From a virus, in IMG/VR virus record IMGVR_UViG_3300021335_000106, positions 1 to 21,937 of that record: 21,937 bases of DNA. The stretch is one strand, 5' to 3'. Positions 7,713 to 21,937 of this stretch are shown here, one piece after another (the stretch's first letter is position 1; every line of letters starts with the position of its first letter). The notes beneath the pieces are model-generated. The model ran no database searches, was not told where the DNA came from, and saw nothing but the letters and a program-made list of their open reading frames with translations. The position numbers and the translations under genes are program-made.

Positions 7713-9083
7713 ATGGCAATTGATAAGATTATAGACAGAGCGGCAACCATATCTGTTTCATCAACAGATGTTTCTGATGATTCAAACACATCTACTGGTG
7801 CTCTGGATATTCCAGTTGGAACTACGGCACAACGGCCTGGTTCACCTACAGAGGGTAATATTAGATATAATACAGACTTGGAAACTACAGAAATTTATGC
7901 CGAGGGTGCTTGGGGTAGGGTATCACCATTGACACCAGCTATCAGTAGTATTACTGGAAACATTTATAACACTAGTGCTGGAAACTTAACTCTCTTAGGA
8001 TCAAATTTTTTATCTACAAATTTAGTTGTTTCATTTACACCTTCTGGTGGTTCTGCATCTACAGTTACAGTAACACCTAATAGTGATATTTCAGCGACAG
8101 TTGCTGTTCCTTCTGCAATCTATGGACAGAGTGCTGGAACTGTTATATCAATATCAGTTACGAATAACGATAGTAGAACATCTGCCGCAACGAACAAAAC
8201 GGTGCTTTCTCCTCCTACTGGTGGAACTGTTACTACCAGTGGAAATTTTAGAATCCATACATTTAATTCTTCTGCCAACTTTGTTGTTCCTTCTAGTGTA
8301 ACACTTGCAGACGTAGAATATCTCGTTATCGCCGGCGGTGGTTCTGGTGGTGACTATGGAGGCGGTGGTGGAGCAGGTGGGTATCGCTCATCTGTTGTTG
8401 GTGAAAACTCTGGTGGTGGCGCTTCGGCGGAATCTAGAATAACTATGGCGCCTGCAACATATGTTTGTACGATTGGTGCCGGTGGTGCCGCTGATACTAC
8501 TAACGGTACTTATGATGCTGGAAACAGCGGTGATAATTCTTCTATCATTGGTGGTTCTGTTAGTATTACCAGTGTTGCTGGTGGAAAGGCCGGACACTAT
8601 AATAACGTAAGCGGTAGCGCTGGAGGCTCAGGTGGTGGGGCTGGTATCGCTGAAAATACTGGAAATGGTATCGGTGGCGCTGGAACAAGTGGACAAGGAT
8701 ACGCTGGTGGTGCCAATACTGCTGGAAGAGGTGGTTCTGGTACTTACCCAGGCGGCGCAGGCGGTGGTGGAGCAGGTGCCGTAGGTTCTAACGGTTCTGC
8801 AAAAGGTGCTGCTGGACAACCAGGCGGTGCTGGTGTTGCATCCTCAATAACAGGTTCATCTATTACTCGTGCCGGTGGCGGTGGAGGAGCTTCTGGTTCT
8901 AGTGGCATTGGTGGAGCTGGTGGTGCCGGCGGCGGTGGAACAGCAGAAGGTTATGGTGGCGCAGACAAAAACGGTGGAACAAACACTGGCAGCGGCGGTG
9001 GTGCTGATACTGGAACAACAAATAGTACTGTTGCTGGAAATGGCGGCAGTGGCGTTGTCATTATTAAATATCAATTACCGTAG
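7713..9083 (+). CDS. Glycine-rich tail adhesin-like protein, copy 1
   Basis: This 456-residue protein has three parts. Residues 36-70 carry the fibre motif T-T-A-Q-R-P-G-S-P-T-E-G-N-I-R-Y-N and an (E)-x-Y-x-x-G-x-W ending. Residues about 76-165 look like an Ig/IPT-type beta-sandwich (ISSITGN start, VTVTP, AVPSAIYGQSAG). Residues about 170-456 are a glycine-rich domain opening with G-G-T-V-T-T-S-G-N-F-R-I-H-T-F and V-E-Y-L-V-I-A-G-G-G, then long Gly tracts broken by Ala, Ser and Asn, closing on SGVVIIKYQLP. Such Gly tracts form polyglycine-II bundles in the gp38-type adhesins of T-even phages and in marine phage tail proteins, so receptor binding is plausible. It is paralogous to the gene at 19483, which has identical length. 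Start supported by TAAGGA at 7698-7703. Confidence 0.8.
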   Translation: MAIDKIIDRAATISVSSTDVSDDSNTSTGALDIPVGTTAQRPGSPTEGNIRYNTDLETTEIYAEGAWGRVSPLTPAISSITGNIYNTSAGNLTLLGSNFLSTNLVVSFTPSGGSASTVTVTPNSDISATVAVPSAIYGQSAGTVISISVTNNDSRTSAATNKTVLSPPTGGTVTTSGNFRIHTFNSSANFVVPSSVTLADVEYLVIAGGGSGGDYGGGGGAGGYRSSVVGENSGGGASAESRITMAPATYVCTIGAGGAADTTNGTYDAGNSGDNSSIIGGSVSITSVAGGKAGHYNNVSGSAGGSGGGAGIAENTGNGIGGAGTSGQGYAGGANTAGRGGSGTYPGGAGGGGAGAVGSNGSAKGAAGQPGGAGVASSITGSSITRAGGGGGASGSSGIGGAGGAGGGGTAEGYGGADKNGGTNTGSGGGADTGTTNSTVAGNGGSGVVIIKYQLP

Positions 9084-9098
9084 GGAGAATAATATAAG

Positions 9099-9449
9099 AT
9101 GGCACATTTTGCAAAAGTAAATAACGGTATTGTAGAAAAGGTTATTGTAGCAGAACAAGATTATATTGACAATCTTGTTGATGATAGCCCAGGCGAATGG
9201 ATTCAAACATCATACAATACACATGGTGGAGTTCACTCTGAAGGTGGAACTCCTTTAAGAAAAAATTATGCCGCAGTTGGATTTGTTTATGATAAAGATA
9301 GAGATGCTTTTTATTCACCCAAACCATATGCATCATGGACATTAGATGACGATACCTGTATGTGGTCTGCACCTGTTGATAGACCAGATGATGATATTCT
9401 CTATGAGTGGGATGAAGAAAACAGAAACTGGGTTGAACCAACCGAATAA
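9099..9449 (+). CDS. Conserved 116-residue phage protein, copy 1
   Basis: Function not known. It belongs to a small family I recognise from marine T4-like phages, marked by a M-A-H-F-A-K start, V-I-V-A-E at 15-19, a P-G-E-W-I-Q-T-S-Y-N-T block at 31-41, R-K-N-Y-A-A-V-G-F-V-Y-D at 54-65, and a Trp-rich C-terminus (S-W-T-L, then C-M-W-S-A-P-V, then W-D-E, then W-V-E). There is no signal peptide or membrane segment. A second copy of equal length lies at 20866, likewise right after a glycine-rich 456-residue gene; more than half of positions agree by eye. This pairing suggests a helper or chaperone for the glycine-rich protein or a co-assembling tip subunit, an inference only. Its Shine-Dalgarno AGGGAG (9082-9087) overlaps the upstream stop. 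Confidence 0.82.
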   Translation: MAHFAKVNNGIVEKVIVAEQDYIDNLVDDSPGEWIQTSYNTHGGVHSEGGTPLRKNYAAVGFVYDKDRDAFYSPKPYASWTLDDDTCMWSAPVDRPDDDILYEWDEENRNWVEPTE

Positions 9450-9452
9450 ATA
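9445..9452 (+). promoter_or_regulatory. Near-consensus late promoter box before gp8
   Basis: AATAAATA (one mismatch to TATAAATA) overlaps the stop of the 116-residue gene and lies 18 bases before the gp8 start. The surrounding 15-base sequence caaccgaataaataa (9439-9453) is repeated exactly after the second copy of the gene (21206-21220). It is a candidate only, since half of it is coding. Confidence 0.35.
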
Positions 9453-9470
9453 AGATTATAGGAAAAAACA

Positions 9471-10988
9471 ATGGCAGCGATAATTACAGAAAAATTTAGA
9501 CAACACAATGCAGACCAGTTCTTTGAGTCATTCACTGAGGCTGCGGCAAATAATTATTATTTGTTTATTGGTAAGACTTCACCGTTTACCTCTGGAACAA
9601 CTGGTGGTTCGGATACAACTCCCCCAACACCAGTAGACACAATTACACTTGATAGTTATAAGTGGGATTCAATGATTGCTGCCAAAAGAATTGGAACTAC
9701 TGATGTTACTTATGTAATACCAAGAAGAAATTATGTAGAAGGAACAACTTATGATATGTACGAACATAACATTAGTTCTTCTAACACCGCCACCTCTGGT
9801 GCAACAAATCTTTTTGACTCGACACACTACTTTGTCACTGATGAGTTTAAAGTTTATAAAGTTCTAGACAATAATGGTGGAACTGCAATTCAGGCTGGTG
9901 CGAGCGGGCCAACGTCAACTGCGTCAGACCCATTCTTTTCTGGTGGATACTATCTTCAGTATATGTACACACTTTCAACTTCACAAATTCAAAAGTTTGT
10001 TACGACAGATTTCATTCCAGTTCTTTCAGACACAACTGTTGTAAGTGATGTTCAAACAAACTCTGGTGACACTGCACCATTTAATGGCGCTCCAGTTAAA
10101 GTAATACAAGTAACTGGTGGTTCTGGTTATACAAATGGAACTTACTATGCTCCTATTCGTGGAGATGGTACTGGTGGTGTTGTAAAGATTCATGTATCTG
10201 GTGGAGAAATCCAAAAGTTTGGAAACACCGTCAACAACTCACAGATTGAAAATGCTGGTGTTGGTTACACATACGGTATAGTAGATTTAACAAATGATAT
10301 CTTTACTACATATTCTAGTAGTACGCTATCAGGTGCATCTTCACTTGGTTCAGGAAGTAATGGTGTGATAACCCCAATAATTTCACCAAGAGTTGGACAT
10401 GGATATGATCCAATTGGAGAACTTGGTGGACACTATATTATGTTGAATGCAAAACTAGAACAAGCCGAAGGTGACGATTTTGCCGTAGGAAATGACTTTA
10501 GAGAAGTAGGACTACTAGTTGATCCTAGTTCATTTGGTAGTGCAAATCCATATAGTGGTACAACTGCAAGGCAAACATACGCCGTTGCATTCTCTTCTTC
10601 ATCTGCAACATTTGAACCTGATGAAAGAATTACACAAGCAACAACTGGTGCAGTAGGTAGAGTTGTTGAATATGATGCAACAAGAAAAATACTTTACTAC
10701 CTACAAGAAAGATTTGAAACATACGGCGTAAATGCAAACGGTGATTATGTTGCGTTTTCTGGAACAGGTGATATCGTTGGTGCGACATCTAGTTCTACTG
10801 GTGTTCCAGCCCAACCAAGTGGTGGAAGTATAACTCTCGCCGGTGGTAATTCAATAACATTTAATAGTGGATATGCAAATCCAGAATTACAACCAGACAG
10901 TGGTAATATTATCTATGTAGAAAACAGACGGCCTATTTCTCGTGCGTCTGACCAAACAGAAGATATTAAAGTTGTCGTAGAATTCTAA
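9471..10988 (+). CDS. gp8: Baseplate wedge subunit gp8
   Basis: The ends match T4 gp8 (334 residues), a wedge protein bound by gp7 and gp10. The N-terminus has a K-F-R-x-x-x-x-x-x-F segment and Y-L-F-I-G-K-T-S-P-F (residues about 9-40). V-I-P-R-R-N-Y follows at about 83, corresponding to VIPRR in T4, then Y-Y-L-Q-Y-M-Y-T-L at 161-169 and the C-terminus G-N-I-I-Y-V-E-N-R-R-P-I ending in D-Q-T-E-D-I-K-V-V-V-E-F, very close to the T4 ending. At 505 residues it is much longer than T4's. Added parts include a G-x-G-Y beta module (about 209-275) of the kind also seen in the gp7 homologue, and a V-G-R-V-V-E-Y segment near 398. Its ATG follows TAGGAA. T4 places gp8 directly after gp7; here three genes intervene. 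Confidence 0.9.
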   Translation: MAAIITEKFRQHNADQFFESFTEAAANNYYLFIGKTSPFTSGTTGGSDTTPPTPVDTITLDSYKWDSMIAAKRIGTTDVTYVIPRRNYVEGTTYDMYEHNISSSNTATSGATNLFDSTHYFVTDEFKVYKVLDNNGGTAIQAGASGPTSTASDPFFSGGYYLQYMYTLSTSQIQKFVTTDFIPVLSDTTVVSDVQTNSGDTAPFNGAPVKVIQVTGGSGYTNGTYYAPIRGDGTGGVVKIHVSGGEIQKFGNTVNNSQIENAGVGYTYGIVDLTNDIFTTYSSSTLSGASSLGSGSNGVITPIISPRVGHGYDPIGELGGHYIMLNAKLEQAEGDDFAVGNDFREVGLLVDPSSFGSANPYSGTTARQTYAVAFSSSSATFEPDERITQATTGAVGRVVEYDATRKILYYLQERFETYGVNANGDYVAFSGTGDIVGATSSSTGVPAQPSGGSITLAGGNSITFNSGYANPELQPDSGNIIYVENRRPISRASDQTEDIKVVVEF

Positions 10989-11009
10989 TTTGAGATAAGG
11001 TGTATATAA

Positions 11010-14000
11010 ATGGCTGAAACGCTAACAAACTTCAACGTCACTCCATATAATGACGATTACGCAACTACGAAAAATTTTCATCGTGTTATGTTTCGTCCAA
11101 GTTTCGCTGTGCAAGCAAGAGAGCTTACACAGTTGCAAACTATTCTACAGGAGCAGATTAATAAACTAGGTTCACATATTTTTGAACAGGGTTCTATGGT
11201 AATCCCTGGCGATATCAATGTTGATATGTTCTATGACTATATCCAGTTAGAGTCAACATTTAATGCGGCGACAGTAGAAACATACAGAACTGAATTTCAA
11301 GATAAGATAATTGAATCCACAACATCTGGATTGAAGGCAAGAGTTATTACAACGATTGCAGCGACTGATACTGACCCTCTTACTCTTTATATCAAGTATG
11401 AGAACACTGGTACTGATGGTGTTACTAAGACATTTGGTGTTGGTGAAACAATTATATCTACCAATGCAAATAATACTACGACTACAAACTTCAAACTTAC
11501 AACAAATCAAACTACAGAGCGTTCTGCACAAATTGGTTCTTCTTCCACATCTACTGGAATAGGTTCGGCCGTTCTGGTTCATGCAGGCGTTTACTTTGTA
11601 AACGGTTTCTTTGTAGAAAATACAGAACAAATTATTATACTTGACAAATATTCAAATCGTCCATCGTATCGTGTTGGATGGCAAATTGGAGAAACATTCG
11701 TAACACCAGAAGATGATTCCTCTCTTCTTGACAATGCACAAGGTTCATCAAATGTTAATGCTCCTGGCGCCCACAGATTTAAAATTTCTCTTACTCTTGT
11801 TAAGAAAACTCTAACTGCAACTGATGACACAGACTTCATTGAACTTGCTCGTCTTGACAGGGGTAGTATTCAAAAGTTTGTTAAGTATTCTGATTACTCA
11901 CAACTAGAACACACACTTGCTCGTAGAACATTTGATGAAAGTGGTAACTATGAGGTTCGTCCTTTCAAACTTGAAAAGAGAGAGCATCTTAACGATGGAA
12001 CAAACAGAGGTGTGTTCCTTTCAGCTGGTGGCGGTTTAGAATCTAAAGTTGCATTCTCAATCGAACCAGGCAAGGCATATGTCGAGGGTTATGAATTAGA
12101 GACAATGGGTTCACAGATTGTTCCTGTAGATAAACCAAGAACATTTGACAGAGAGGTTGATAGACCAATTCAAACTCCTGTTGGTAACTTTCAACTTGTA
12201 GAAAATGTAATTAATATTCCGAATATCAATGCATTTGAAGAAGTTGCATTGTATGATGACTTGGGTGGACAGCCCGGCGGTGGTACTCAAGTAGGTACTG
12301 CAAGAGTTCGTGCATTCTCTTTGCATGATGGTGATTACACTTCGACTGCGGCAACCGTAAAATTTAAACTTGGCCTGTTCGATATTAATATGAATACAGG
12401 TAAAGATTATGACAGGGATGTAAAATCTTTTGATGGTGCAAACTTTCTTGCAGATGTCAGTCCTACACAATCAACACTCTTTGGTACAGCCTCAGTGGCT
12501 GGTTCTGGTTCTGGAACACAAGCAATTACTGGTGTAGGAACTCTATTTAATACTGAATTAAAAACTGGTGATTACATCTTTATAAATGGAACAAGACTTG
12601 GGCCGATTACTGTTACAGATAATTTGACAGCAAGTGTTACATATACTGGTGCTGCAATCGCTGGTGGACAAATAAAAAGATTTAATGCAAAGATTGAAGA
12701 AGCAGATAATAAGTCTCTTGTCTTTGACTCAAACTTTTTCAGACTTAGAAAAGTTAGAGGTGACTCTACTTCAAATCCAGATAACGAACAATCTACGTCA
12801 TATACTTTAAGAAGGCAGTTCACACCAGTGCAAGTTTCTGGTGCCGGTGTTGCCCAGTTCAGTGTGACAGATAACGAATCTTTTGCATCTGGTTCTAACT
12901 TACAAAACTTTACTCTTGTTATTACTGCAAGTTCTAATGCGGCTACTGTAGGTAGAGTTCTTCCAATTAGGACTAGCGATATTACTGTCTCAGGTGGTGG
13001 ACTGACTGTTAGTTTTGCAAACCTTACTAGTCTTTCGTCACCAGCCGCTTCTGGTGACTCTGTTGCTCTGATAGCATCTGTTGATGTAAGTTCAACTGCG
13101 GCGACAGAAAAAACTAAAACTCTTATTGAAAATCATACTACAGAAATTACAACTCAGGCAGCGGCGGCATTAACAAATGTTACGTTGGGTAAGGCCGATG
13201 GATTTAAACTTCTTTCTGTAAAGATGGCAACGGCGTTTGGTTCTTATAGCACAACAAATCAAATTGATATTACAGATAGATATACTTTTGATACTGGTAT
13301 GAGAGATGCATTTTATGGACTTGCATCAATTAGACTGAAACCAGGCCAACCTGTTCCTACAGGTTCTATTCGTGTGGCATTTGATTTCTTCACACATGGT
13401 GCCGGTGATTACTTCTCAGTAGATTCGTATACTGGACAAGTTACTTATGAAAACATTCCAACATATATTTCAAAGGATAATGGTTCATCACTAGAACTAC
13501 GAGATTGTTTTGACTTCAGGCCTCGTGTAGATGATAGTGGAACATTCTCTGGTGCAACTGCATCCATAACAGAACTTCCATTTGTTGGTACAAATGTTTC
13601 TGCTGACTTCTCATTCTTCTTAGGAAGAAAAGATTTGATTTTCATGGATAGACTTGGAAAGTTTAATGTAATAACAGGTGTTCCTTCACTTACTCCTACA
13701 ACTCCACAGTCTCCTGAGACTGGCATGGTTCTTTTTGAAACAACCATGTCTCCATATGTTATTGGACTAGATGAAATCAATATTAGAAAACTAGATAATC
13801 GTAGATATACGATGAGAGACATTGGTAAACTTGACAAAAGAATTACCAATCTAGAATATTATACTTCACTCAATCTTCTAGAGAAAGAAGCCGCATCACT
13901 TGTATTGAAAGATAGTGATGGAAATGATAGACTTAAAAATGGTTTCATAGTAGATAACTTTACAGGACACGCAATCGGTGATTACGAAAGTGCAGACTAT

Positions 14001-17000
14001 AAAGTTGCTGTCGATTTCCAAAAACGTGTTGCTCGTCCAATGGCATTCTCTGATAATGCCACTATGATTGAAACTCTTTCCACTGCGTCTGCAAGAGCTT
14101 CTTCTGGTTATAGAAAACATGAAGATGGTATCATAACACTTCCTTATACAGAAACTACATATATTCAAAATCCATATGCAACGGATAGTTTTGATGTAAA
14201 CCCATACAAGGTTGCACCATTTACTGGTGAGATGATACTTGTTCCATATTCAGATGATTGGCAAGATGTGACTCGCAGGCCTGACGTTGTTGTAGATGAT
14301 GACAATAACTTTGATGTTATAAATCGTCTTGCAGAAGAGATGGGTGTAACTGGTACAGTTTGGAACTCATGGCAGAACTCTTGGTTCGGTGAGAGACAGT
14401 GGACAGGAACACAAAGTTCATCTAGCACACAAAGAATCAATACTGGTGGTGGTATTGCAACTATAAGAACAACGACAACAAGAAGAACAGGTACACAACA
14501 AGTAGGACAAACTCGTTCTGGTATTGAAACCTCTATTCAATCTTCAGTTGATTCACATAATATGGGTGATAGAATTGTTGGTATTAACATGATACCATTC
14601 ATGCGTTCACGCCCTGTTAGTGTTGTGGTTGCAAATATGCGCCCCAATACAAAAATGTTTGCATACTTTGATAATGAAAATGTAACAGACTTCTTCCGTC
14701 CAGACGATGTATTCACAGTGACTTCTGGTTCAAGAGCAAATTTTGATTTTAATAATACAGAACTTCCTGGCCCAGAAAGTTCTACTGATGCCGCAAGACA
14801 ATTTAACGGTGAAGCAGTACAGGCATTTGGGTTCGGTGATATTATTAAAAACCAAACACATACTGCAACTGCTGTATCAGGTGTTGTAAAGAACAGTGAT
14901 ACTGTTGCAACAATTACTCTTGCAAGTGTATCTGGTATTGCAGTAGGACACCATGTACAGTTTAGTAGTATTGGTGGTTCAACAAGATTAAACTTTAGAA
15001 CATCTAGAAACAATAACTATGTCGTAACTGGTGTAAGTGGAAGTACAATAACTATTCAAGAACTTGATGGTAGTGCATTAGGTACTATTAGTTCATACAC
15101 ATCTGGTGGTTCTTGTCAGAGACTTCAGGCCTCTGCCCATGTTACTTCTCAGAATGCAACTGCAACTGCAACAGAACTTCCTGTAGATATTAGAGTAAGT
15201 AATGTACAAAATGGATTTGCAATAAGTGACAACCTTTCTGGTTCTGTTCCAAGAACAACTGACGGTGGTACAAACCTTTGTCAAATTACAACTATTAACG
15301 GTTCAACATCAACTACAACCGTTCCCCCTATGAAGGTAGATACTAGCGATATTATCACAGATAATGCTGGTAAAATTACTGGTGTGTTTACAATTCCTAA
15401 CAGCGATTCTTTAAGATTTAGAACTGGTGAAAGAGTTCTAAGACTTATTGATAATATCAATAATAACCCAGAGATTGGGCTACACTCATCAAAGGCTGAA
15501 AAGATTTATTCTGCAACAGGTATTGCAGAAGAAAGAGAACAGACTATTCTTAACGTAAGAAGAGCAGAGTTTGTTCGTGATAGAGTACAAGATAGTCGTG
15601 TTATCTCTCGTGATGTTCGTGGTGCGGCATCTTCAAGATCTCAACAAATTGCATTCCAACAATTGAGTCGAGGCGATGGTGGTGATGGCGGCGATGGTGG
15701 TGGCAACGGTGGTGGTAGCGGACACGATCCACTAGGACAGACATTTATTTCAGAAGGTGTCAACGGTGCATTTGTAACTTCAATTGACTTATTCTTCTCA
15801 GCTCGTGGAACACGCCCAGTATATGTACAACTTGTAAACGCAGTTGATGGACACCCATCACTCAAAATTATTGCACAAAAAATTCTAGATGCAAAGGATG
15901 TAAACGTATCAGATGATGCGTCTGTACCAACTAGATTTACATTCCCTTCTCCTGTATATTTAACTGACGATGTTGAATATGCATTTGTTATTAAAGTTGA
16001 TGAGCCAGGATGTAGAGTATTCTTCTCAGAAGTTGGACAAACTAATCTAACTGATAATCGTGTTGTCTCTGCCAATCCATTAACAGGAACATTGTTCTTA
16101 TCACAGAATGGACAGGCCTGGACACCACACCAATATAGAGATGTCAAGTTTAATCTTAATCGTGCAGATTTCCAAACTACTGCAACTGGAAATCCAGTGT
16201 TTGTAAACACTGCTCTTCCAAAGAGAGAACTGAAAGCAAACCCATTCCAGTGTGCAACTGGAACAAATAAAGTTCGTGTACATCACATGAATCATGGATT
16301 TACAGACGCAGATAAAGTTACCTTCAGTGGTGTTGAAGATGGGTTCTATGGAGCAAACTCAACAACTCAAGGTATAGATTCTGATGCGCTGAATAAACAA
16401 CACAGCGTTTCTGAAGTTACAATTGATAGTTATGTAATTACTCTTGACAATGCTGATATTACAGGAAGCAATTCAGTTCTTGGTAATGACTTCTTCGGTG
16501 GAAGTGGTGTTAAGGCAACTATGAATTTGTCTGGTGATATTATTCAACCTTCAATTTCACAATTAAGTTTCCCTGATACATCTCTCGTATATCGTTATAC
16601 TGGAATGTCTAGCGGTTACTCTAAACAGTCTGTTAGAACTGTTCAAGAAAATGATAACTATTATCCACCACTAAGAAATATTATTGCATCTGAAGAAAAT
16701 GCAGTAGTTAAACTAACAGGTGGTAGAGCAAATAATATTATCAGTGGTACGTCTGCAAAACTAGAAGCGATTATGACAACAAAGAATTCTTATCTGTCAC
16801 CAGTTATTGATACAGAAAGAGTTTCACTGTGTATGACTTCTAATAGAATTTCAAACTACACAAGAACAACAAAGAACGTGACAGAGATTGACGATAGAGC
16901 TCTGCCTGTATCCACAGGTGTTTCATTTAGTGGTAGTACAATATCTGCAACTGCAAGTGGAACGATTAGGGATGATATTCAGACTTTGGATATTGGTAAA

Positions 17001-17522
17001 GAAATAACTATAACTGGAAGTAGTAATAACAATAGAACATTTACTATTACTAGTGTTGCAGCTGATGGCGCTAGTTTTACTGTGTCACCTTCAACTACTT
17101 CGGAGAGTGCTGGCCAGTCTGTTATAATTACTCAACATGAAAACTATCTTGACGGCATCGCTCCAGAGGGAACTTCAAACGAAGCAAACTATCTTACAAA
17201 GAGGTTTACTCTTGCAAACCCAGCGACTGCACTAAAGATTTTATATGAAGCCAATCGTCCAGAACCATCAATCTTACAAATATATTATAAGATTGCTGAA
17301 GAGGGTGATAATAGAAACTTTGACGATATTCCATATGTATTATCAAATACTGACGTAACTGATAATCCAGATGAAAATAGAGAATTGTACAGAGAAAGAG
17401 AACATACCATTTCTGGATTAAATGCATTCTCTACTGCGGCAGTGAAGTTTGAGTTTAAGTCTACCTCTACAGTAGAAGTTCCAAAAATTAGAAACCTTAG
17501 AGTATTGGCACTTGCACTATGA
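11010..17522 (+). CDS. Giant DUF4815-type virion structural protein
   Basis: At 2170 residues this is the largest gene. The N-terminus (T-L-x-N-F-N-V-T-P-Y-N-D-D-Y, then N-F-H-R-V-M-F-R-P and F-A-V-Q-A-R-E-L-T-Q-L-Q-T) is the hallmark of the DUF4815 family of phage baseplate or tail structural proteins; the family's biochemical role is unknown. Farther on are Y-F-S-V-D-S-Y-T-G and L-R-D-C-F-D-F-R-P-R-V-D near 810-840, and F-M-R-S-R-P at about 1196. Small beta modules are inserted near residues 508, 1299, 1753 (V-R-V-H-H-M-N-H-G-F) and 1972. A G/D/N-rich linker containing RGD (about 1553-1572) precedes a D-P-L-G-Q-T-F domain that looks like a jelly-roll. The last residues are a typical V-P-K-I-R-N-L-R-V-L-A-L-A. 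The TATAAATG at the start codon is probably chance. It overlaps the next gene (ATGA). Confidence 0.85.
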   Translation: MAETLTNFNVTPYNDDYATTKNFHRVMFRPSFAVQARELTQLQTILQEQINKLGSHIFEQGSMVIPGDINVDMFYDYIQLESTFNAATVETYRTEFQDKIIESTTSGLKARVITTIAATDTDPLTLYIKYENTGTDGVTKTFGVGETIISTNANNTTTTNFKLTTNQTTERSAQIGSSSTSTGIGSAVLVHAGVYFVNGFFVENTEQIIILDKYSNRPSYRVGWQIGETFVTPEDDSSLLDNAQGSSNVNAPGAHRFKISLTLVKKTLTATDDTDFIELARLDRGSIQKFVKYSDYSQLEHTLARRTFDESGNYEVRPFKLEKREHLNDGTNRGVFLSAGGGLESKVAFSIEPGKAYVEGYELETMGSQIVPVDKPRTFDREVDRPIQTPVGNFQLVENVINIPNINAFEEVALYDDLGGQPGGGTQVGTARVRAFSLHDGDYTSTAATVKFKLGLFDINMNTGKDYDRDVKSFDGANFLADVSPTQSTLFGTASVAGSGSGTQAITGVGTLFNTELKTGDYIFINGTRLGPITVTDNLTASVTYTGAAIAGGQIKRFNAKIEEADNKSLVFDSNFFRLRKVRGDSTSNPDNEQSTSYTLRRQFTPVQVSGAGVAQFSVTDNESFASGSNLQNFTLVITASSNAATVGRVLPIRTSDITVSGGGLTVSFANLTSLSSPAASGDSVALIASVDVSSTAATEKTKTLIENHTTEITTQAAAALTNVTLGKADGFKLLSVKMATAFGSYSTTNQIDITDRYTFDTGMRDAFYGLASIRLKPGQPVPTGSIRVAFDFFTHGAGDYFSVDSYTGQVTYENIPTYISKDNGSSLELRDCFDFRPRVDDSGTFSGATASITELPFVGTNVSADFSFFLGRKDLIFMDRLGKFNVITGVPSLTPTTPQSPETGMVLFETTMSPYVIGLDEINIRKLDNRRYTMRDIGKLDKRITNLEYYTSLNLLEKEAASLVLKDSDGNDRLKNGFIVDNFTGHAIGDYESADYKVAVDFQKRVARPMAFSDNATMIETLSTASARASSGYRKHEDGIITLPYTETTYIQNPYATDSFDVNPYKVAPFTGEMILVPYSDDWQDVTRRPDVVVDDDNNFDVINRLAEEMGVTGTVWNSWQNSWFGERQWTGTQSSSSTQRINTGGGIATIRTTTTRRTGTQQVGQTRSGIETSIQSSVDSHNMGDRIVGINMIPFMRSRPVSVVVANMRPNTKMFAYFDNENVTDFFRPDDVFTVTSGSRANFDFNNTELPGPESSTDAARQFNGEAVQAFGFGDIIKNQTHTATAVSGVVKNSDTVATITLASVSGIAVGHHVQFSSIGGSTRLNFRTSRNNNYVVTGVSGSTITIQELDGSALGTISSYTSGGSCQRLQASAHVTSQNATATATELPVDIRVSNVQNGFAISDNLSGSVPRTTDGGTNLCQITTINGSTSTTTVPPMKVDTSDIITDNAGKITGVFTIPNSDSLRFRTGERVLRLIDNINNNPEIGLHSSKAEKIYSATGIAEEREQTILNVRRAEFVRDRVQDSRVISRDVRGAASSRSQQIAFQQLSRGDGGDGGDGGGNGGGSGHDPLGQTFISEGVNGAFVTSIDLFFSARGTRPVYVQLVNAVDGHPSLKIIAQKILDAKDVNVSDDASVPTRFTFPSPVYLTDDVEYAFVIKVDEPGCRVFFSEVGQTNLTDNRVVSANPLTGTLFLSQNGQAWTPHQYRDVKFNLNRADFQTTATGNPVFVNTALPKRELKANPFQCATGTNKVRVHHMNHGFTDADKVTFSGVEDGFYGANSTTQGIDSDALNKQHSVSEVTIDSYVITLDNADITGSNSVLGNDFFGGSGVKATMNLSGDIIQPSISQLSFPDTSLVYRYTGMSSGYSKQSVRTVQENDNYYPPLRNIIASEENAVVKLTGGRANNIISGTSAKLEAIMTTKNSYLSPVIDTERVSLCMTSNRISNYTRTTKNVTEIDDRALPVSTGVSFSGSTISATASGTIRDDIQTLDIGKEITITGSSNNNRTFTITSVAADGASFTVSPSTTSESAGQSVIITQHENYLDGIAPEGTSNEANYLTKRFTLANPATALKILYEANRPEPSILQIYYKIAEEGDNRNFDDIPYVLSNTDVTDNPDENRELYREREHTISGLNAFSTAAVKFEFKSTSTVEVPKIRNLRVLALAL

Positions 17523-17743
17523 CGCATATTAAAGTAGAAGGACACAGTGAATATGTAAGAGAAGAAAAGTCTCATGCAATAATTAATACTGATACGTCAA
17601 ATTATACTAGTTATATGAAGATGATGGAAAATAAAAAGAAACAAAAGGATCAATTGAGAGATGCAGTTAGAGAGATAAATACTTTAAAGTGTGAAATGCA
17701 CGAAATCAAATCTCTATTGATGCAACTAATGGATAGGAAATAA
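17519..17743 (+). CDS. Small coiled-coil protein, translationally coupled
   Basis: A 74-residue protein of unknown function, of a type recognised in marine T4-like phages: a conserved N-terminus (T-H-I-K-V-E-G-H then Y-V-R-E-E and A-I-I-N-T-D-T) followed by a heptad-like helix from about residue 36 to the end, rich in K, E, M and L (KKKQKDQLRDAVREINTL, then a second helix EIKSLLMQLM). A coiled coil is likely. Its start overlaps the DUF4815 stop (ATGA) and its own stop overlaps the next ATG (TAATG), so all three genes are coupled, fitting a stoichiometric partner or assembly helper. No recognisable Shine-Dalgarno of its own was needed to assign the start. Function is inferred only from position. 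Confidence 0.8.
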   Translation: MTHIKVEGHSEYVREEKSHAIINTDTSNYTSYMKMMENKKKQKDQLRDAVREINTLKCEMHEIKSLLMQLMDRK

Positions 17744-18276
17744 TGGCAGACCGTAACGCACCAGCTACCTTTACATTTGAAGAGTGGAGAGTAGAATTTA
17801 ATGAACTCGCAGTTGATGTCGGTGACATCAGCAATCTACCCTCTTCTATTAATGGGCAAGCAGTAACAGATGTTATTGAAGCAATTAAAGAATTAGAATC
17901 AGGACTCAGTTCAGTTCTCTTTCCTACAGTAATTGACTTTGATGATTCTACAGGTGCGGCCAGTGAAAGAATCAAATTTGGACTCCATGACGATTTGCAA
18001 ATATACCATGATAGTAATCACTCACAAGTTATTCATAATGGAACTGGCAATCTAAAGGTTGATAGTAACAGTAGAACTGAAGTTGATGCAGTATCAGGTG
18101 TTGACATTCAGTTTAATGGGGTAACAAAACTTACATCATTAAATACTGGTGTAGGTATTGATGGTGCATTTACAGATTCAAGTGGAACAATGACTGGCAC
18201 ATTACAATTTCCTATTATTGGTGGTAAGATAGCCACTGAAGGTTTTGGTATTGCTCTTGCTGTTGCATTAGGGTAA
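17743..18276 (+). CDS. Short fibre-like structural protein
   Basis: The 177-residue product starts with T-F-T-F-E-E-W-R-V-E-F-N-E-L-A (residues 9-23), a recurrent fibre N-terminus in marine phages. Residues 78-105 hold the characteristic (F/D)-G-x-x-D-D-L-Q-I-Y-H-D-S-N-H-S-x-V-I-H-N-G-T-G-N-L-K motif, seen repeatedly in tail-fibre and structural proteins of T4-like marine phages. Beta-rich repeats continue to a hydrophobic C-terminus ending G-I-A-L-A-V-A-L-G. The same A-L-A-(V/I)-A-L-G ending is found in the gene at 21247. There is no enzyme motif. The start is set by a TAATG overlap with the coiled-coil gene. Attachment to the DUF4815 protein is a reasonable guess. Confidence 0.75.
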   Translation: MADRNAPATFTFEEWRVEFNELAVDVGDISNLPSSINGQAVTDVIEAIKELESGLSSVLFPTVIDFDDSTGAASERIKFGLHDDLQIYHDSNHSQVIHNGTGNLKVDSNSRTEVDAVSGVDIQFNGVTKLTSLNTGVGIDGAFTDSSGTMTGTLQFPIIGGKIATEGFGIALAVALG

Positions 18277-18280
18277 TCAT

Positions 18281-18288
18281 TATAAATA
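18281..18288 (+). promoter_or_regulatory. T4-type late promoter box for the distal cassette
   Basis: An exact TATAAATA sits five bases after the stop at 18276, in the longest gap of this region (36 bases). The expected transcript start is near 18294, ahead of AAAGGAAG and the ATG at 18313. It would start transcription of the distal accessory block. Confidence 0.62.
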
Positions 18289-18312
18289 GATTAAACAAAG
18301 GAAGATAAAAGA

Positions 18313-18660
18313 ATGGCAAACAATTTTAAGAATGCATTTGCAACGAGTATATCCACAAACAGTGGTTCTCCTACAGATGTATATACTGCTAATGATGGTT
18401 CATCTGCCGTTAATTCAATTCTTATCGAACTTGATATTGCAAACACAGGAACTTCTGCTGTTCAAGTAACAGTTCTTGTAAGAGACAGTAGTGCCAGTGC
18501 ATCTTATCACATTATTAAAAATGCACCTATCCCTGTGGGCTCAGCGCTTAAAGTTGTATCAGGCCAGAAGGTTGTGTTAAACGGCAATGACAAAATTCAA
18601 GTTTATGCCTCTGCGGCAACTGTGGATGTGGTTGCATCAATTCTACAAGATGTTACATAA
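18313..18660 (+). CDS. Conserved 115-residue beta-rich phage protein, copy 1
   Basis: Function unknown. The protein (residues M-A-N-N-F-K-N-A-F at the start; S-I-L-I-E-L-D-I-A-N and V-T-V-L-V-R-D-S in the middle; I-I-K-N-A-P-I-P-V-G-S-A-L-K-V-V then G-N-D-K-I-Q-V-Y near the end) reads as an all-beta sandwich and is recognised as a family in marine T4-like phages near tail-fibre genes. The A-P-I-P-V-G-S segment looks like a conserved turn. The Shine-Dalgarno is AAAGGAAG (18297-18304). A paralogue begins at 21894 with the near-same first residues (M-A-N-T-F-K-N-A-A). Role as a small virion or baseplate decorating protein is inferred. Confidence 0.75.
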   Translation: MANNFKNAFATSISTNSGSPTDVYTANDGSSAVNSILIELDIANTGTSAVQVTVLVRDSSASASYHIIKNAPIPVGSALKVVSGQKVVLNGNDKIQVYASAATVDVVASILQDVT

Positions 18661-18670
18661 GGGGTAGATA

Positions 18671-19483
18671 ATGTCTGATTCATATATGGGTATCAATACA
18701 CCAAACAGGGTATCTGCTGCATTTCAGAAAGAGGATTTTGCTGGCTCTGACTTGGGTAATATTACTGTCGGTAGTGTGACACACACAAACGCATATGCGT
18801 TAGATACAGATGTTGATGGTTCAAATGCTGAAAACCTTTATGTAGTTGTAGACAACGTGGTTCAAGAACCAGATGTAGCATTTACAATTCACGAGAATGC
18901 AAACAGTCAACCAAGAATTATTAAGTTCGCTGGTTCTCTCTCTGCGGCCGCTTCTATCTATGTAGTTCATAGAGGTATCGGTTCTATGACAATGAAACCG
19001 CCAACAGGTTCAGTTGGTGCAGATGAACTTGCACCCAATCTAAAGTCATTTACTACAGATGTATTTACTGGTGATGGTTCTGCAACAACATTCACTTTAA
19101 CAGAGACACCACCAAACGCAAACTCAGTTTTGGTTTTCGTTGATGGTATCTTACAGAAGTCATCAACCAACTATTCTATCTCAGGTACAACTCTAACATT
19201 TACTTCTGCCCCAGACGCAAGTGCTGAGATTGAAGCAAAACACATGGGTATTCGTGGAGTGGTTCGCAGAAGCACAGACTACCAGTATGATGCATTTACT
19301 GGTGATGGTTCTGCAACAACATTCACTTTAAGTAATAACGGAGCAACAACAAACAGTGCGTTTGTATTTTACAATGGTGTAGCACTCAAGCCTTCTACTG
19401 ATTATGCTATAAGTGGCACGACTTTAACAACAACATTCGCACCACAGAATGCTTCAGAAATAATGGTGAGGTATCAAATCTAA
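18671..19483 (+). CDS. Modular beta-repeat fibre-like protein, three modules
   Basis: The 270-residue product contains three copies of a module of about 77 residues with the pattern F-T-G-D-G-S-A-T-T-F-T-L, hydrophobic strand, V-F-V-D-G-I-L-Q, N-Y-(S/A)-I-S-G-T-T-L-T, then A-P-x-x-A-S-(A)-E-I. Copies two and three start at residues 132 and 209. The first (about 30-105) is diverged (L-Y-V-V-V-D-N-V-V-Q-E-P). Such modules are common in phage fibres and often bind or orient the tip. The N-terminus (S-Y-M-G-I-N-T-P) is of a type shared with the gene at 21247. Its stop overlaps the next ATG (TAATG), so it is coupled to the glycine-rich gene. A role in mounting that adhesin is inferred. Confidence 0.78.
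   Translation: MSDSYMGINTPNRVSAAFQKEDFAGSDLGNITVGSVTHTNAYALDTDVDGSNAENLYVVVDNVVQEPDVAFTIHENANSQPRIIKFAGSLSAAASIYVVHRGIGSMTMKPPTGSVGADELAPNLKSFTTDVFTGDGSATTFTLTETPPNANSVLVFVDGILQKSSTNYSISGTTLTFTSAPDASAEIEAKHMGIRGVVRRSTDYQYDAFTGDGSATTFTLSNNGATTNSAFVFYNGVALKPSTDYAISGTTLTTTFAPQNASEIMVRYQI
19063..19100 (+). repeat. 38-base direct repeat, first copy
   Basis: A perfect 38-base sequence, beginning atttactggtgatggttc, encoding F-T-G-D-G-S-A-T-T-F-T-L. It recurs without change at 19294-19331, exactly 231 bases (77 codons) later. Confidence 0.95.
19294..19331 (+). repeat. 38-base direct repeat, second copy
   Basis: Identical to 19063-19100, one module further on in the same gene. The identity of the DNA, although the rest of the module has diverged, suggests recent duplication or gene conversion between modules. 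Confidence 0.95.
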
Positions 19484-20853
19484 TGGCAAGTAAATCAAAA
19501 TCAGTTGCAGAATCACAAATTTATGATGTAAACTCAACGTCCACTGGTGCATTCGATATGCCCTCTGGTACAACTGCACAACGGCCAGGTTCACCTAATA
19601 GTGGACAAACTAGATTTAATAGTACTTCTGGTTCATTAGAATTTTACGATGGTACTGAATGGATATCAACAAACCTAATTCCAACAATAACTTCTATTAC
19701 TGGAAACATTAATGATGGATATTCATCAAACCTAGTTTTTGCAATAACAAACAACACTGATAATGTTGATGTTGTGTTCTCAGAAGGTGGTTCGGCAATC
19801 ACAACTATAGTTGGACAAGCAGTATCTTCTGGTTCATTAACAGTCGCTGTTCCTGCTGCAGTTTATGGACAAACTGCTGGTGATACAATTTCAATATCAA
19901 TTAAAAATCAAGATGGAACACCTAGTTCAAATACTATAACTAAAACTGTTCTAGCCGCACCAGCTGGTGGTACAATTACCACAAGTGGTAACTATAGAAT
20001 TCATACATTTACATCATCAGGAACTCTTTCAACAAGCGCTTATTCTATTTCAAATGCAGAATATCTTGTAATCGCTGGCGGTGGTGGTGGCGCCAGTGAC
20101 CTTTCTGGTGGTGGCGGTGCAGGCGGCTATCGTTCTTCAGTTGTAGGACAAAGTTCTGGCGGTGGCGGTTCTGCCGAGGCAAGAATCACTCTGGCACAGG
20201 GAAACCACACTGTGACAGTTGGCGCCGGTGGCGCTGGTGGAACTGCAGGCACAAGAAATAGCGCAACGACAGCAGGAACTACTGGAAATGACTCTGTTTT
20301 TGGTTCAATAACATCACTCGGCGGTGGCGGTGGAGGAGTTTACGGCGCTCTAAACTCTCCATATCGAGATGGTAAAGCCGGCGGTTCAGGTGGCGGCGGC
20401 GGTGCTGGCGATGCAGGCGATCCTGGCGCAGGCGGCGCTGGTACTGCTAACCAAGGTTATGTTGGCGGCCCAGGTTCTGAAGGTAATCCATATGTCGGCG
20501 GTGGCGGTGGTGGTGCCGGTGTAGCTGGTGCTGCCGGATCAGCTCCTCTTGGTGGCCCAGGCGGTAATGGTGTATCATCAAATATAACAGGTTCGGCCGT
20601 AACTCGAGCTGGTGGCGGTGGTGGTGCTTGCTACAATTCCCTTACTGGAACACCTACTGGTGGTGTCGGTGGATCTGGTGGTGGTGGCCGAGGCGGTGCA
20701 GGCCTTGGTAATGGTGCATTGAATGTTGGCGTTGATGGAGTTGTTAATACTGGTTCTGGTGGAGGCGGTAGTTCTTGGAACAGCCAACCAGTCGCTGGTG
20801 CTGATGGTGGTTCAGGTATTGTCATTGTAAGATATGACATGACGGCTAATTAG
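19483..20853 (+). CDS. Glycine-rich tail adhesin-like protein, copy 2
   Basis: The 456-residue protein is a diverged paralogue of the gene at 7713: it shares T-T-A-Q-R-P-G-S-P at 30-38, the Ig/IPT-type region (about 66-156), G-G-T-I-T-T-S-G-N-Y-R-I-H-T-F at 162-176, A-E-Y-L-V-I-A-G-G-G and G-G-G-G-A-G-G-Y-R-S-S-V-V-G. The glycine-rich region (about 199-445) differs in insertions and Gly tract spacing, and carries a lone cysteine in A-G-G-G-G-G-A-C-Y. The end G-S-G-I-V-I-V-R-Y replaces V-V-I-I-K-Y. Polyglycine-II packing is likely. Two similar but different adhesin-like proteins in one phage could bind different receptors, an inference. It is coupled by TAATG to the upstream modular gene. Confidence 0.8.
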   Translation: MASKSKSVAESQIYDVNSTSTGAFDMPSGTTAQRPGSPNSGQTRFNSTSGSLEFYDGTEWISTNLIPTITSITGNINDGYSSNLVFAITNNTDNVDVVFSEGGSAITTIVGQAVSSGSLTVAVPAAVYGQTAGDTISISIKNQDGTPSSNTITKTVLAAPAGGTITTSGNYRIHTFTSSGTLSTSAYSISNAEYLVIAGGGGGASDLSGGGGAGGYRSSVVGQSSGGGGSAEARITLAQGNHTVTVGAGGAGGTAGTRNSATTAGTTGNDSVFGSITSLGGGGGGVYGALNSPYRDGKAGGSGGGGGAGDAGDPGAGGAGTANQGYVGGPGSEGNPYVGGGGGGAGVAGAAGSAPLGGPGGNGVSSNITGSAVTRAGGGGGACYNSLTGTPTGGVGGSGGGGRGGAGLGNGALNVGVDGVVNTGSGGGGSSWNSQPVAGADGGSGIVIVRYDMTAN

Positions 20854-20865
20854 GAGATTATGTAA

Positions 20866-21216
20866 ATGTCACATTACGCAAAAGTAGAAAAAGGTAAAGT
20901 AATTAAGGTTATAGTTGCCGAAGAAGAGTTTTTTGAAACATTTGTAGATAACACGCCAGGCGAGTGGATTCAAACAAGTTATAATACAAAGGCAGGCGAA
21001 CATACTGGTGGGGGAACACCTTTAAGAAAAAATTATGCTGGGATAGGTTGGAACTATGATGGAGTGGGGTTCTTTCCACCACAACCCTTTGATAGTTGGA
21101 TACTAAATGATACAACATACTTATGGGAGCCTCCTGTAGATTATCCATCAGATTATGATGGGATGAATTATACTTGGAATGAAACAAACAGAAGATGGGT
21201 TGAGGCAACCGAATAA
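20866..21216 (+). CDS. Conserved 116-residue phage protein, copy 2
   Basis: Paralogue of the gene at 9099, with the same length and order of blocks: V-I-V-A-E at 15-19, P-G-E-W-I-Q-T-S-Y-N-T at 31-41, G-G-G-T-P-L-R-K-N-Y-A-G-I-G near 48-61, F-P-P-Q-P-F-D-S-W, Y-x-W-E-P-P-V, Y-x-W-N-E-T-N-R-R-W-V-E. A 20-base stretch is identical between copies (9252-9271 and 21019-21038). As in the first copy it lies directly after a glycine-rich 456-residue gene, starting 13 bases after its stop (Shine-Dalgarno AGGAG at 20853-20857). Function unknown; a chaperone or partner for the glycine-rich protein is the simplest reading of the repeated pairing. Confidence 0.82.
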   Translation: MSHYAKVEKGKVIKVIVAEEEFFETFVDNTPGEWIQTSYNTKAGEHTGGGTPLRKNYAGIGWNYDGVGFFPPQPFDSWILNDTTYLWEPPVDYPSDYDGMNYTWNETNRRWVEATE

Positions 21217-21219
21217 ATA
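21212..21219 (+). promoter_or_regulatory. Near-consensus late promoter box after 116-residue copy 2
   Basis: AATAAATA overlaps the stop codon and lies 28 bases before the ATG at 21247, in the same place as the box at 9445 after copy 1. One mismatch to the late consensus makes it a weak candidate. Confidence 0.35.
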
Positions 21220-21246
21220 ATAATGAAAAACAAAGGTAGAAACTAA

Positions 21247-21879
21247 ATGGCATATATAGGAGCAGCACCAACCTATGGTGTATTTGATAGACAAGTATTG
21301 GCAGGTGATGGTACAACCACATCTTTCAATCTTGATCATATGGCCGTACCAACATCTTTGTTGGTCGTATTAGATGGTATTGTACAAGAACCAGAATATT
21401 CGTATTCAACTAGTCTTGTTTCTGGACAACCAAAGATTACATTTTCACAGGCTCCAGATGCTGCCGGTAGAATCTCTATTGTCTATCTTGGTAATGAAGT
21501 TCTAACAGCAACTCCTGCTACTTCAGAAACTTTTATTGATGAGTTTAATGGTGATGGTTCTGATACTACGTTTACGTTGACAAGAACTCCTGCTGCAAAC
21601 ACTGCCGGAAACTTTGCTGTATTTGTAGATAATGTGTATCAAAGATATGGTTCTGCATATGCATACACAGTTGTTGGTGATGTATTAACATTTACATCTG
21701 CTCCACCAGCTGGAACAAATAATATTCAATGTATTCAGTTGAATGGGGTGAACACACTAAATAGTGTTGCAGATGGATCAATATTAACTGCTAAGATTGC
21801 AGACGGTAATGTTACCAAAGCAAAACTAAACTTTGATCCAGAAGATGACGCAACGGCACTGGCAATTGCTTTAGGATAA
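21247..21879 (+). CDS. Modular beta-repeat fibre-like protein, two modules
   Basis: The 210-residue product is related to the gene at 18671. Module one (about 17-82) has A-G-D-G-T-T-T-S-F-N-L then L-V-V-L-D-G-I-V-Q-E-P and I-T-F-S-Q-A-P-D-A-A-G-R-I; module two (about 98-165) has F-N-G-D-G-S-D-T-T-F-T-L, V-F-V-D-N-V-Y-Q, and L-T-F-T-S-A-P-P. Then follows V-A-D-G-S-I-L-T-A-K-I-A-D-G-N-V-T-K-A-K-L (174-194), a recurring fibre motif, and an ending A-T-A-L-A-I-A-L-G like that of the gene at 17743. The product is presumably a tail-fibre or adaptor subunit. No Shine-Dalgarno of the AGGAG type is clear (AAAGGTAG at 21233-21240 is the closest). Confidence 0.75.
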   Translation: MAYIGAAPTYGVFDRQVLAGDGTTTSFNLDHMAVPTSLLVVLDGIVQEPEYSYSTSLVSGQPKITFSQAPDAAGRISIVYLGNEVLTATPATSETFIDEFNGDGSDTTFTLTRTPAANTAGNFAVFVDNVYQRYGSAYAYTVVGDVLTFTSAPPAGTNNIQCIQLNGVNTLNSVADGSILTAKIADGNVTKAKLNFDPEDDATALAIALG

Positions 21880-21893
21880 TATAGGAAAAAAAC

Positions 21894-21937
21894 ATGGCGA
21901 ACACATTTAAGAATGCTGCATTGGCAAACGTAAGTAA
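21894..21937 (+). CDS. Start of a second 115-residue-family protein (3' end outside window)
   Basis: Only 14 codons are inside the window: M-A-N-T-F-K-N-A-A-L-A-N-V-S. They match the first residues of the gene at 18313 (M-A-N-N-F-K-N-A-F). The ATG follows TAGGAAAAAA, almost the same leader as that before gp8 (9459-9470). It is therefore probably a paralogue, but the rest is not visible. Confidence 0.72.
   Translation, partial: MANTFKNAALANVS

Follow-up and report, generated by a model that had tools for sequence, protein, structure and literature searches.

The window analyzed here is the whole 21,937 nt of IMG/VR record IMGVR_UViG_3300021335_000106, from a virus with T4-like tail genes, and all of the genes discussed below are on its plus strand. 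Two places in it, which we call slots A and B, each hold a gene for a glycine-rich adhesin followed by a gene for a 116-amino-acid protein (the 116 protein), a candidate fibre chaperone or cap. Slot A lies upstream of gp8: its left flank is a gp10-like baseplate gene (6855..7700; PF07880, E 8.2e-07; phrog_677, 4.3e-15), its filling is an adhesin gene (7713..9083; phrog_2295) and a 116 gene (9099..9449; phrog_7759, 7.4e-31), and its right flank is the gp8 baseplate wedge gene (9471..10988; PF09215, 1.2e-15; phrog_438, 4.4e-123). A gene for a 2170-amino-acid DUF4815 protein (11010..17522; PF16075, 1.2e-54) lies between the slots. Slot B is bounded on the left by g18671 (18671..19483; phrog_18673, 1.3e-15; PF13799), a putative tail fibre gene whose Melnitz counterpart is annotated as a putative tail fiber protein, and on the right by g21247 (21247..21879), a conserved gene with no Pfam match that follows slot B in Melnitz and in many contigs; its filling is an adhesin gene (19483..20853) and a 116 gene (20866..21216; phrog_7759, 2.4e-28). 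The 116 genes begin 15 nt (slot A) and 12 nt (slot B) past their glycine-rich genes, and both adhesins score above the curated cut-off of Gly_rich_2 (PF21722; 36.2 bits in slot A and 42.8 in slot B, against 24.3). An earlier note on this DNA had reported such a set twice, and all four open reading frames are indeed present (456/456 and 116/116 amino acids).

In protein alignments the two adhesins are 46% identical over 463 columns (E 5e-50) and the two 116 proteins 55% identical (E 9e-47), while DNA identity between the sets is 60% for the glycine-rich genes and 67.5% for the 116 genes. The equal adhesin lengths are a coincidence, because the alignment takes 37 gap columns. The note had asked whether the adhesins align only through low-complexity residues; the likeness goes beyond these, since the first 170 residues alone give 103 bits (44% identity), and for the C-terminal part the score is 61.6 bits where 100 shuffles reach 20.8 bits at most.

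AlphaFold2 models, made of each protein singly, show the predicted fold of the slot B adhesin (mean pLDDT 87.3). Its residues 64–159 (19672..19959) are modelled as an IPT/TIG Ig-like domain resembling that of EBF1 (3mqi_C; Z 9.9, rmsd 2.3, 86 residues aligned), and its residues 169–456 (19987..20850) as a TNF-like domain that leads into a glycine-rich lattice; in the slot A copy this order is read from sequence only. The latter region matches cyanophage Pam3 tail fibre gp24 (7ypx_A; Z 15.0, rmsd 3.0, 188 residues aligned, 29% identity) and, best among the structural matches listed, chain Qb of 9d93 (Z 15.5), a tail-tip protein of mycobacteriophage Bxb1. Sequence searches of the PDB with the glycine-rich protein, its C-terminal part or its profile gave no phage match, and a tblastn search of phages with the glycine-rich domain gave none either, presumably on account of the low-complexity filter. 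Salmonella phage S16 gp38, one of the T-even polyglycine-II adhesins, also has a glycine-rich receptor-binding tip; it is a separate tip protein mounted on gp37, unlike the arrangement here (cited in PMC9608196, available in part). Its absence from the 50 structural matches listed carries no weight either way.

The model of the slot A 116 protein (mean pLDDT 93.9) has a single short helix, at residues 20–25. Its residues 1–73 match Pam3 gp25 (7ypx_a) weakly, with Z 5.3 over 52 residues and rmsd 2.2, and this was the sole chain with Z of at least 2 among the 30 aligned; Foldseek gives the same pair a probability of 0.91, but an E value of 0.31 and a TMq of 0.40. The match suggests a fold like that of the Pam3 chaperone, although a Z of 5.3 may reflect no more than a common arrangement. 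With a Pfam threshold of E 1, no chaperone family was hit by any of the 56 family members, no convincing match was found in Pfam or NCBIfam (56 members each) or in PADLOC (two proteins), and PDB sequence searches with one 116 protein and with the family profile gave no phage match.

The 116 genes keep close company with glycine-rich genes, a pairing that the earlier note had predicted from these two cases and that proves to be conserved; the situation that the note named as refuting it, with most 116 genes located apart from glycine-rich ones, is rejected. Among 50 unique metagenomic cases (loci L004, L052 and L140 share one contig and were counted once), the 116 gene is immediately downstream of a glycine-rich gene in 37, with intervening sequence in the other 13, and all 50 are within 4.2 kb; only 3 of 356 control open reading frames directly adjoin one. 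At L169 an open glycine-rich reading frame accompanies the 116 gene. The named phages, which infect several hosts (16 of 39 records, the two Melnitz records being treated separately), show 12/16 adjacent and 16/16 within 3 kb; the four with intervening sequence are P-RSM4, S-CAM8, MS29 and DSL-LC04, where the genes are 0.9–2.8 kb apart. In this set the glycine-rich frame of phiPsal1 is our own ORF call (its record annotates other small genes there) and that of Greip is cut by the start of the record. A table of 113 slots, some of whose slot A adhesins are 5'-truncated at contig ends, was reduced to 86 by removing adhesins at least 90% identical over 80% of their length; 116 genes accompany 21 of the 23 glycine-rich fillings (the exceptions are L153 and L185) and 0 of the 63 others (Fisher 4e-18). 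Gene 183 of Melnitz-3 likewise has a Gly_rich_2 domain with no 116 gene adjoining. The non-glycine-rich fillings of slot B can have small genes of their own: an LTIADAD-like protein, recognized by a motif pattern written for this analysis, follows the adhesin in 12/36 of them and in 0/12 glycine-rich ones. Over the 42 of 55 pairs with a unique 116 protein and an adhesin fragment of at least 220 amino acids, distances within the two families are uncorrelated overall (Mantel r 0.02, p 0.38), as they are in the T4-like subset (r 0.01, p 0.47, n=23), and the nearest neighbours agree in 13/42.

The adhesin and 116 genes move together. Of 58 slot B relatives, 46 lose identity to the window 17–33 nt into the adhesin gene (34 of them at 19500) and 26 regain it no more than 14 nt from the 116 stop codon, both borders being sharp in only 22; the relatives were not deduplicated, and the slot is empty in 7 of them. 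At slot A, flank identity to three loci (L049, L050 and L051) continues to 7731 and then ends. In Melnitz-2, a cultured phage of Methylophilales, both sets occur at the same places, along with a third. This phage is nearly isogenic with Melnitz-3 (flanks 99.8% and 100% identical), and at one locus Melnitz-2 has a glycine-rich gene and a 116 gene where Melnitz-3 has neither; at a second locus the situation is reversed. In a tree of 27 slot-assigned proteins, from which near-copies and fragments were removed by hand, the slot B adhesin of the window groups with L003 and with L004, a slot A gene from a different phage (100/98), none of the three genomes represented by more than one copy has two of them as sisters, and slot labels are unclustered (12 changes, as compared with a shuffled mean of 11.7). 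The Melnitz loci, the tree and the identity borders thus bear out the suggestion that the unit is exchanged between phages and between slots. The two sets are fillings of separate slots, drawn from one shared pool. A recent duplication within the genome, retained for gene dosage and without any exchange among phages, would account for the repeated gene order and equal lengths, but it is scarcely credible with copies only 55% and 46% identical and with such a tree, and we reject it.

Tfa-type tail fibre chaperones such as Pam3 gp25 and Mu Tfa are needed for a soluble, trimeric fibre. Their genes adjoin the fibre genes that they serve, as most of the 116 genes do, and since both chains of a single solved complex find a match in our cassette, we think that each set is probably a cassette that is exchanged as one, encoding a receptor-binding fibre and an assembly chaperone or cap dedicated to it. 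That complex, 7YPX, joins Pam3 gp24 to its intermolecular chaperone gp25, which touches gp24 mainly through its N-terminal domain (PMC9608196, in the part available); this is the β-sandwich that the 116 model weakly resembles, and the TNF-like plus glycine-rich region is the part shared with gp24. At the sequence level the proteins of the cassette match no phage chain in the PDB; at the N-terminus gp24 has a helical dock, where our adhesins have a short motif and the IPT/TIG domain, and the C-terminal helical trimerisation domain of gp25 is absent from the 116 model, so that the partner would be a minimal fibre chaperone. By analogy with Pam3, the 116 protein would bind the glycine-rich protein and assist its assembly, and the glycine-rich protein would be the putative receptor-binding protein. 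The first gene would then encode a fibre or adhesin that has, at its N-terminus, a short motif tending to remain with the slot, next an IPT/TIG domain, and last a TNF-like and glycine-rich domain whose loops would touch the receptor. The two genes are exchanged as one unit among related phages at two or more slots (a third in Melnitz), and the C-terminal domain type and the partner therefore change jointly.

The 116 protein might instead be built into the virion permanently at the tip of the fibre, as a cap or lectin that joins in receptor binding and is not an assembly chaperone. Its conservation spans the whole protein, including a Trp-rich C-terminal half that lies outside the gp25 match, and some fibre chaperones, including Mu Tfa, are reported to remain attached (PMC10579305, available in part). 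We consider this role unlikely, as the sole structural neighbour from the PDB search is a chaperone that mass spectrometry did not detect in Pam3 virions (PMC9608196, again in the part available) and conservation is higher in the partner than at non-glycine positions within the glycine-rich region. The mean majority frequencies are 0.61–0.67 for the partner (56 of 61 unique sequences, L009, one truncated and three longer ones of 153–170 amino acids being omitted by hand) and 0.46 for the latter (18 hand-picked sequences), in agreement with the earlier view that the partner is conserved while the glycine-rich part varies. It is very improbable that the 116 gene just hitchhikes in the variable host-recognition region as an accessory, functionally unlinked to the adhesin; the gaps in the four named phages and the lack of a global distance correlation would fit such a gene, but its absence from all non-glycine-rich fillings of the same slots, its adjacency in phages of several hosts and the matches to both chains of one complex argue against it.

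The window's slot A adhesin begins MAIDKI (7713..7730) and its slot B adhesin MASKSK (19483..19500), each motif ending about where flank identity breaks. Among unique N-termini MAID begins 8/28 in slot A and 0/60 in slot B, and the motif MxSxSKxxAE is found in 53/60 of slot B; these may be docking tags. We tentatively extend this, at somewhat less than even chances, to a scheme in which these phages have two or three adhesin sockets that are independent of one another. Every filling would be an interchangeable cassette of three parts: a short N-terminal address peptide related to the slot (MAID... for some of the slot A genes and MxSxSKxxAE for most of those in slot B), a receptor-binding body that is swapped freely, and a small partner, the family of which is dictated by the body. 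The partner would be of the 116 family for glycine-rich bodies, LTIADAD-like where the body ends in AEL or the like, and PF16778 for others. If so, host range would be set combinatorially from a pool that phages have in common. The pairing also suggests a guide for annotation, in which the small gene behind an adhesin indicates the C-terminal type of that adhesin.

A literature search conducted mostly outside subscription papers found no earlier description of the glycine-rich/116 pair or of the 116 family. The fibre-and-chaperone reading gives phrog_7759, widespread and of unknown function, a likely role. It also breaks up some of the variable tail region of T4-like phages into separate units of two genes whose borders can be seen, and their swapping shows concretely how a change of host could come about in such viruses. 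Since the cultured Melnitz isolates already differ in units of this kind, a change of host range can be tested. The two sets might hold two receptor specificities, as the earlier note proposed, but all four Melnitz variants, one with nine genes of altered length in the region, were reported not to differ in host range on three OM43 strains (PMC9004378, available in part). In Alteromonas phage A5/V22 a fibre and its cognate chaperone are likewise a module common to unrelated phages; the chaperones there have 195 and 240 amino acids, the fibre architecture differs, and the available part of PMC10579305 makes no mention of several slots fed by a common pool. The host recognition cluster of pelagimyophages is a variable island between VrlC and gp14 (no gp14 was identified within our window), and it and its cyanomyophage equivalent are, like the region studied here, hypervariable, furnished with tail fibres and inside the structural region; the available text of PMC7029224 describes no cassettes of two genes, partners or N-terminal motifs for it. 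An extra plastic region in the baseplate module of some cyanomyophages, reported in the same text, may correspond to slot A.

The 21,937 bases are a complete virus record with T4-like baseplate genes (Pfam and PHROG matches); its gp6-like baseplate protein (1754–3652) has a long serine run at its end. Two sites in the tail-gene region, here called slots A and B, each hold a gene of 456 codons for a glycine-rich putative adhesin and a small partner gene of 116 codons. Slot A, between the gp10-like gene and gp8, contains the first set (7713–9083 and 9099–9449, the small gene starting 15 nt after its neighbour), and slot B, between the genes that start at 18671 and 21247, contains the second (19483–20853 and 20866–21216, 12 nt apart). 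The earlier note's claim that this pair is present twice is thus correct, including the lengths, and the two 116-residue proteins, said to be alike at about half or more of their positions, are 55% identical in pairwise alignment. The glycine-rich proteins are 46% identical to each other, and both match Pfam Gly_rich_2 above the cut-off. The worry that they align only through low-complexity residues proved unfounded: residues 1–170 alone align with 44% identity (103 bits), and the C-terminal part reaches 61.6 bits where none of 100 shuffles exceeds 20.8, which rules out composition alone as the source of the similarity. PHROG assigns the glycine-rich proteins to phrog_2295 and the 116 proteins to phrog_7759, both of unknown function.

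The pairing of glycine-rich and 116 genes is general. Loci on viral contigs (numbered with an L, as are those of named phage genomes) were pooled from three scans, one that used the 116 protein as query (42 loci) and two that started from flank genes (best 80 loci each); several of our counts rest on our own ORF calls in unannotated contigs. Unique 116 genes preceded by 1.5 kb or more of sequence number 50; of these, 37 have a glycine-rich gene directly upstream (within 250 nt) and all have one within 4.2 kb, compared with 3 of 356 control ORFs (90–160 aa, same loci) that adjoin one (Fisher 7e-38). The family therefore does not usually sit away from glycine-rich genes, a possibility the earlier note had raised, and the linked pairs it proposed to seek in other phages are found in named genomes as well: in 12 of the 16 examined (among 39 records found) a glycine-rich ORF lies immediately 5' of the 116 gene. 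Phages of Roseobacter, Pelagibacter, Pontimonas, Prochlorococcus and Synechococcus are among these 16, as are both Autographiviridae and Kyanoviridae. The glycine-rich ORF is 0.9–2.8 kb upstream in the other four, with a 2OG-Fe(II) oxygenase gene intervening in all three that are annotated. Such oxygenase genes occur between or shortly 3' of the two genes in DSL-LC04, HTVC023P, P-RSM4, S-RSM4, S-SM1 and S-CAM8 (L214, L215, L216, L218, L219 and L220, respectively), and P-RSM4 and S-SM1 additionally carry leprecan-like oxygenase genes. A DUF7483 gene separates the pair in one contig group (L005, L010 and L027 scanned), where the order is a protein of about 900–1500 aa with glycine-rich domains, a protein of about 325–365 aa ending in KYANAR, and the 116 gene; contigs L013, L015 and L021, which share the YANAR ending, have this order too. 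L026 and L028 have three such pairs in tandem (about 430–455 aa plus 122–126 aa); in L026 the contig end truncates the first of the glycine-rich genes.

Among the relatives the slot flanks are constant and the filling changes, in scans that select for phages having these flanks. In 86 deduplicated slots a 116 gene adjoins 21 of the 23 glycine-rich fillings (it is absent in two) and 0 of the 63 others (Fisher 4e-18). In slot B a different protein of about 57–76 aa, of a class defined by an LTIADAD-like motif pattern that we wrote, follows 12 of 36 non-glycine-rich adhesins and 0 of 12 glycine-rich ones. Since in these slots the 116 gene is found only with glycine-rich fillings and the LTIADAD-like protein only with others, the adhesin's C-terminal domain type goes with the type of partner. 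Six of the 12 adhesins that precede LTIADAD-like proteins end in AEL and the others in SEL, AEI or AEF. This second cassette type, whose small protein carries the LTIADAD-like motif at its end, occupies slot B of L139, L141, L149, L157, L162 and others, and is also present at L045:15038-16243; the one such protein scanned had no Pfam match above cut-off. A third type of partner in the same region, the PF16778 phage tail assembly chaperone, follows other adhesins (L045:17089-17397, L208:9481-9870). Genes like those at 18313–18660, 18671–19483 and 21247–21879 recur further downstream at about 30–50% identity in L045 and many contigs, which suggests that the socket module itself was duplicated within the variable region.

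The borders of exchange are often sharp. In a set of 58 relatives that was not deduplicated, DNA identity at the left of slot B stops exactly 17 nt into the adhesin ORF for 34 relatives and 17–33 nt into it for 46. At the right it returns no more than 14 nt from the stop codon of the 116 gene for 26, and 22 show both sharp borders. Other left ends lie about 103 nt inside the adhesin (five relatives) or near the empty slot's start codon (seven), and other right ends fall within the 116 gene, which is conserved, or as far as about 320 nt past it. In slot A, identity to L049–L051 breaks 18 nt inside the adhesin; for L048 and L054 the main identity stops 191 nt before it, L054 having an extra 108-nt piece of identity that reaches 7727 and, at the right, identity that returns 5 nt before the 116 stop. 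From these positions, the replaced stretch is often just the adhesin and 116 genes.

Between Melnitz-2 and Melnitz-3, cultured Methylophilales phages of OM43 hosts with the same host strain in their records, the sequence to one side of a replaced stretch is 99.8% identical and that to the other side 100%. At genes 175/176 Melnitz-2 has a glycine-rich gene and a 116 gene, and Melnitz-3 has a nearly identical N-terminus followed by a non-glycine-rich body and an unrelated 85-aa gene; at 181/182 Melnitz-2 has a non-glycine-rich gene plus 74 aa, and Melnitz-3 a glycine-rich gene plus a 115-aa member of the 116 family. The swapping of adhesin and partner sets envisaged in the earlier note is thus visible both in fillings that change between flanks and in these loci, which differ by a whole two-gene unit. 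One exception to the pairing is Melnitz-3 gene 183, which has a glycine-rich domain (missing in Melnitz-2) and no adjoining 116 gene. According to PMC9004378, an isolate named Melnitz-4, probably the Melnitz record compared here, has nine genes in this region whose lengths are altered, and the Melnitz phages have identical host ranges on three strains.

The adhesin N-termini are related to the slot. In slot B, 53 of 60 unique N-termini have an MxSxSKxxAE-like start irrespective of the body and none begins with MAID; in slot A, 8 of 28 begin with MAID (four glycine-rich, four not), seven (L058–L067) are slot-B-like, and 13 have neither motif. L067 has its slot-B-like N-terminus in slot A and an empty slot B. 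Melnitz-2 gene 163 (slot A) starts MAIDKI, and its alignment with the slot B adhesin of L169 begins at residue 22 (72.5% over 211 columns, rising to 84% across 117 residues deeper in the protein); the first 45 residues alone find no match. The simplest reading is that an adhesin consists of a short slot-related address and an interchangeable body, and the N-terminal motif may dock it in its slot.

A recent internal duplication could also have given two sets, and the tree of 27 slot-assigned 116 proteins makes this very unlikely. Much of that tree is poorly resolved: 4 of its 24 inner branches have strong support, and the bootstrap had not converged. Slot labels are unclustered (12 changes against a shuffled mean of 11.7, with 149 of 200 shuffles giving no more than 12), and no copies from one genome are sisters in the three multi-copy genomes (the window, the L004/L140 contig and Melnitz-2). 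A clade with support 100/98 unites the window's slot B protein with that of L003, also from slot B, and that of L004, from slot A; the window's slot A protein lies elsewhere. The L004/L140 contig, whose gp8 and DUF4815 proteins are 87% and 90% identical to those of the window, has in slot A a pair similar to the one in slot B of the window (88% identity for the 116 proteins, 68% for the glycine-rich ones), while its own slot B pair is only about 50% and 44% identical to that window pair. Distances of 116 and glycine-rich proteins show no overall correlation (Mantel r 0.02, p 0.38). In the T4-like subset (23), all six pairs with 116 identity of at least 0.75 have C-terminal identity of at least 0.41 and other pairs mostly 0.1–0.4, columns with Gly, Ser or Ala in both being excluded.

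The available texts describe a hypervariable host recognition cluster, with another plastic region that lies within the baseplate module in some cyanomyophages (PMC7029224), fibre-chaperone modules common to unrelated Alteromonas phages (PMC10579305), and the glycine-rich fibre of cyanophage Pam3 with its chaperone (PMC9608196). Our literature search found no account of the 116 family as a glycine-rich fibre partner, of a two-gene exchange unit that occurs in separate slots, of a partner type that goes with the body type, or of slot-related N-terminal motifs.

AlphaFold2, given 56 sequences, predicts for the slot A 116 protein a beta-hairpin, a single helix at 20–25 and additional short strands, at a mean pLDDT of 93.9. 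Foldseek against 350,542 PDB chains gave 13 matches, of which one is credible, 7ypx_a (prob 0.91, E 0.31), whose 162 residues are the length of the Pam3 chaperone gp25; on structural re-alignment it alone of 30 chains reaches Z of at least 2 (Z 5.3, model 1–73 to chain 3–56). Matches in a predicted viral protein library (E at most 0.001) are uncharacterised or unnamed phage proteins. The slot B glycine-rich model (18 sequences, mean pLDDT 87.3) has an IPT/TIG domain at 64–159 (Z 9.9), and its residues 169–456 match both the Pam3 fibre gp24, at Z 15.0, and a tail-tip protein of Bxb1, at Z 15.5. Because one model matches gp25 and the other gp24, they point to the pair corresponding to both chains of a single complex. 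Taken alone, the match of the 116 protein to gp25 is weak, and gp25 has a helical trimerisation domain that is missing from the 116 protein, so we describe the family as putatively working like a fibre chaperone and do not class it as a Tfa-type chaperone.
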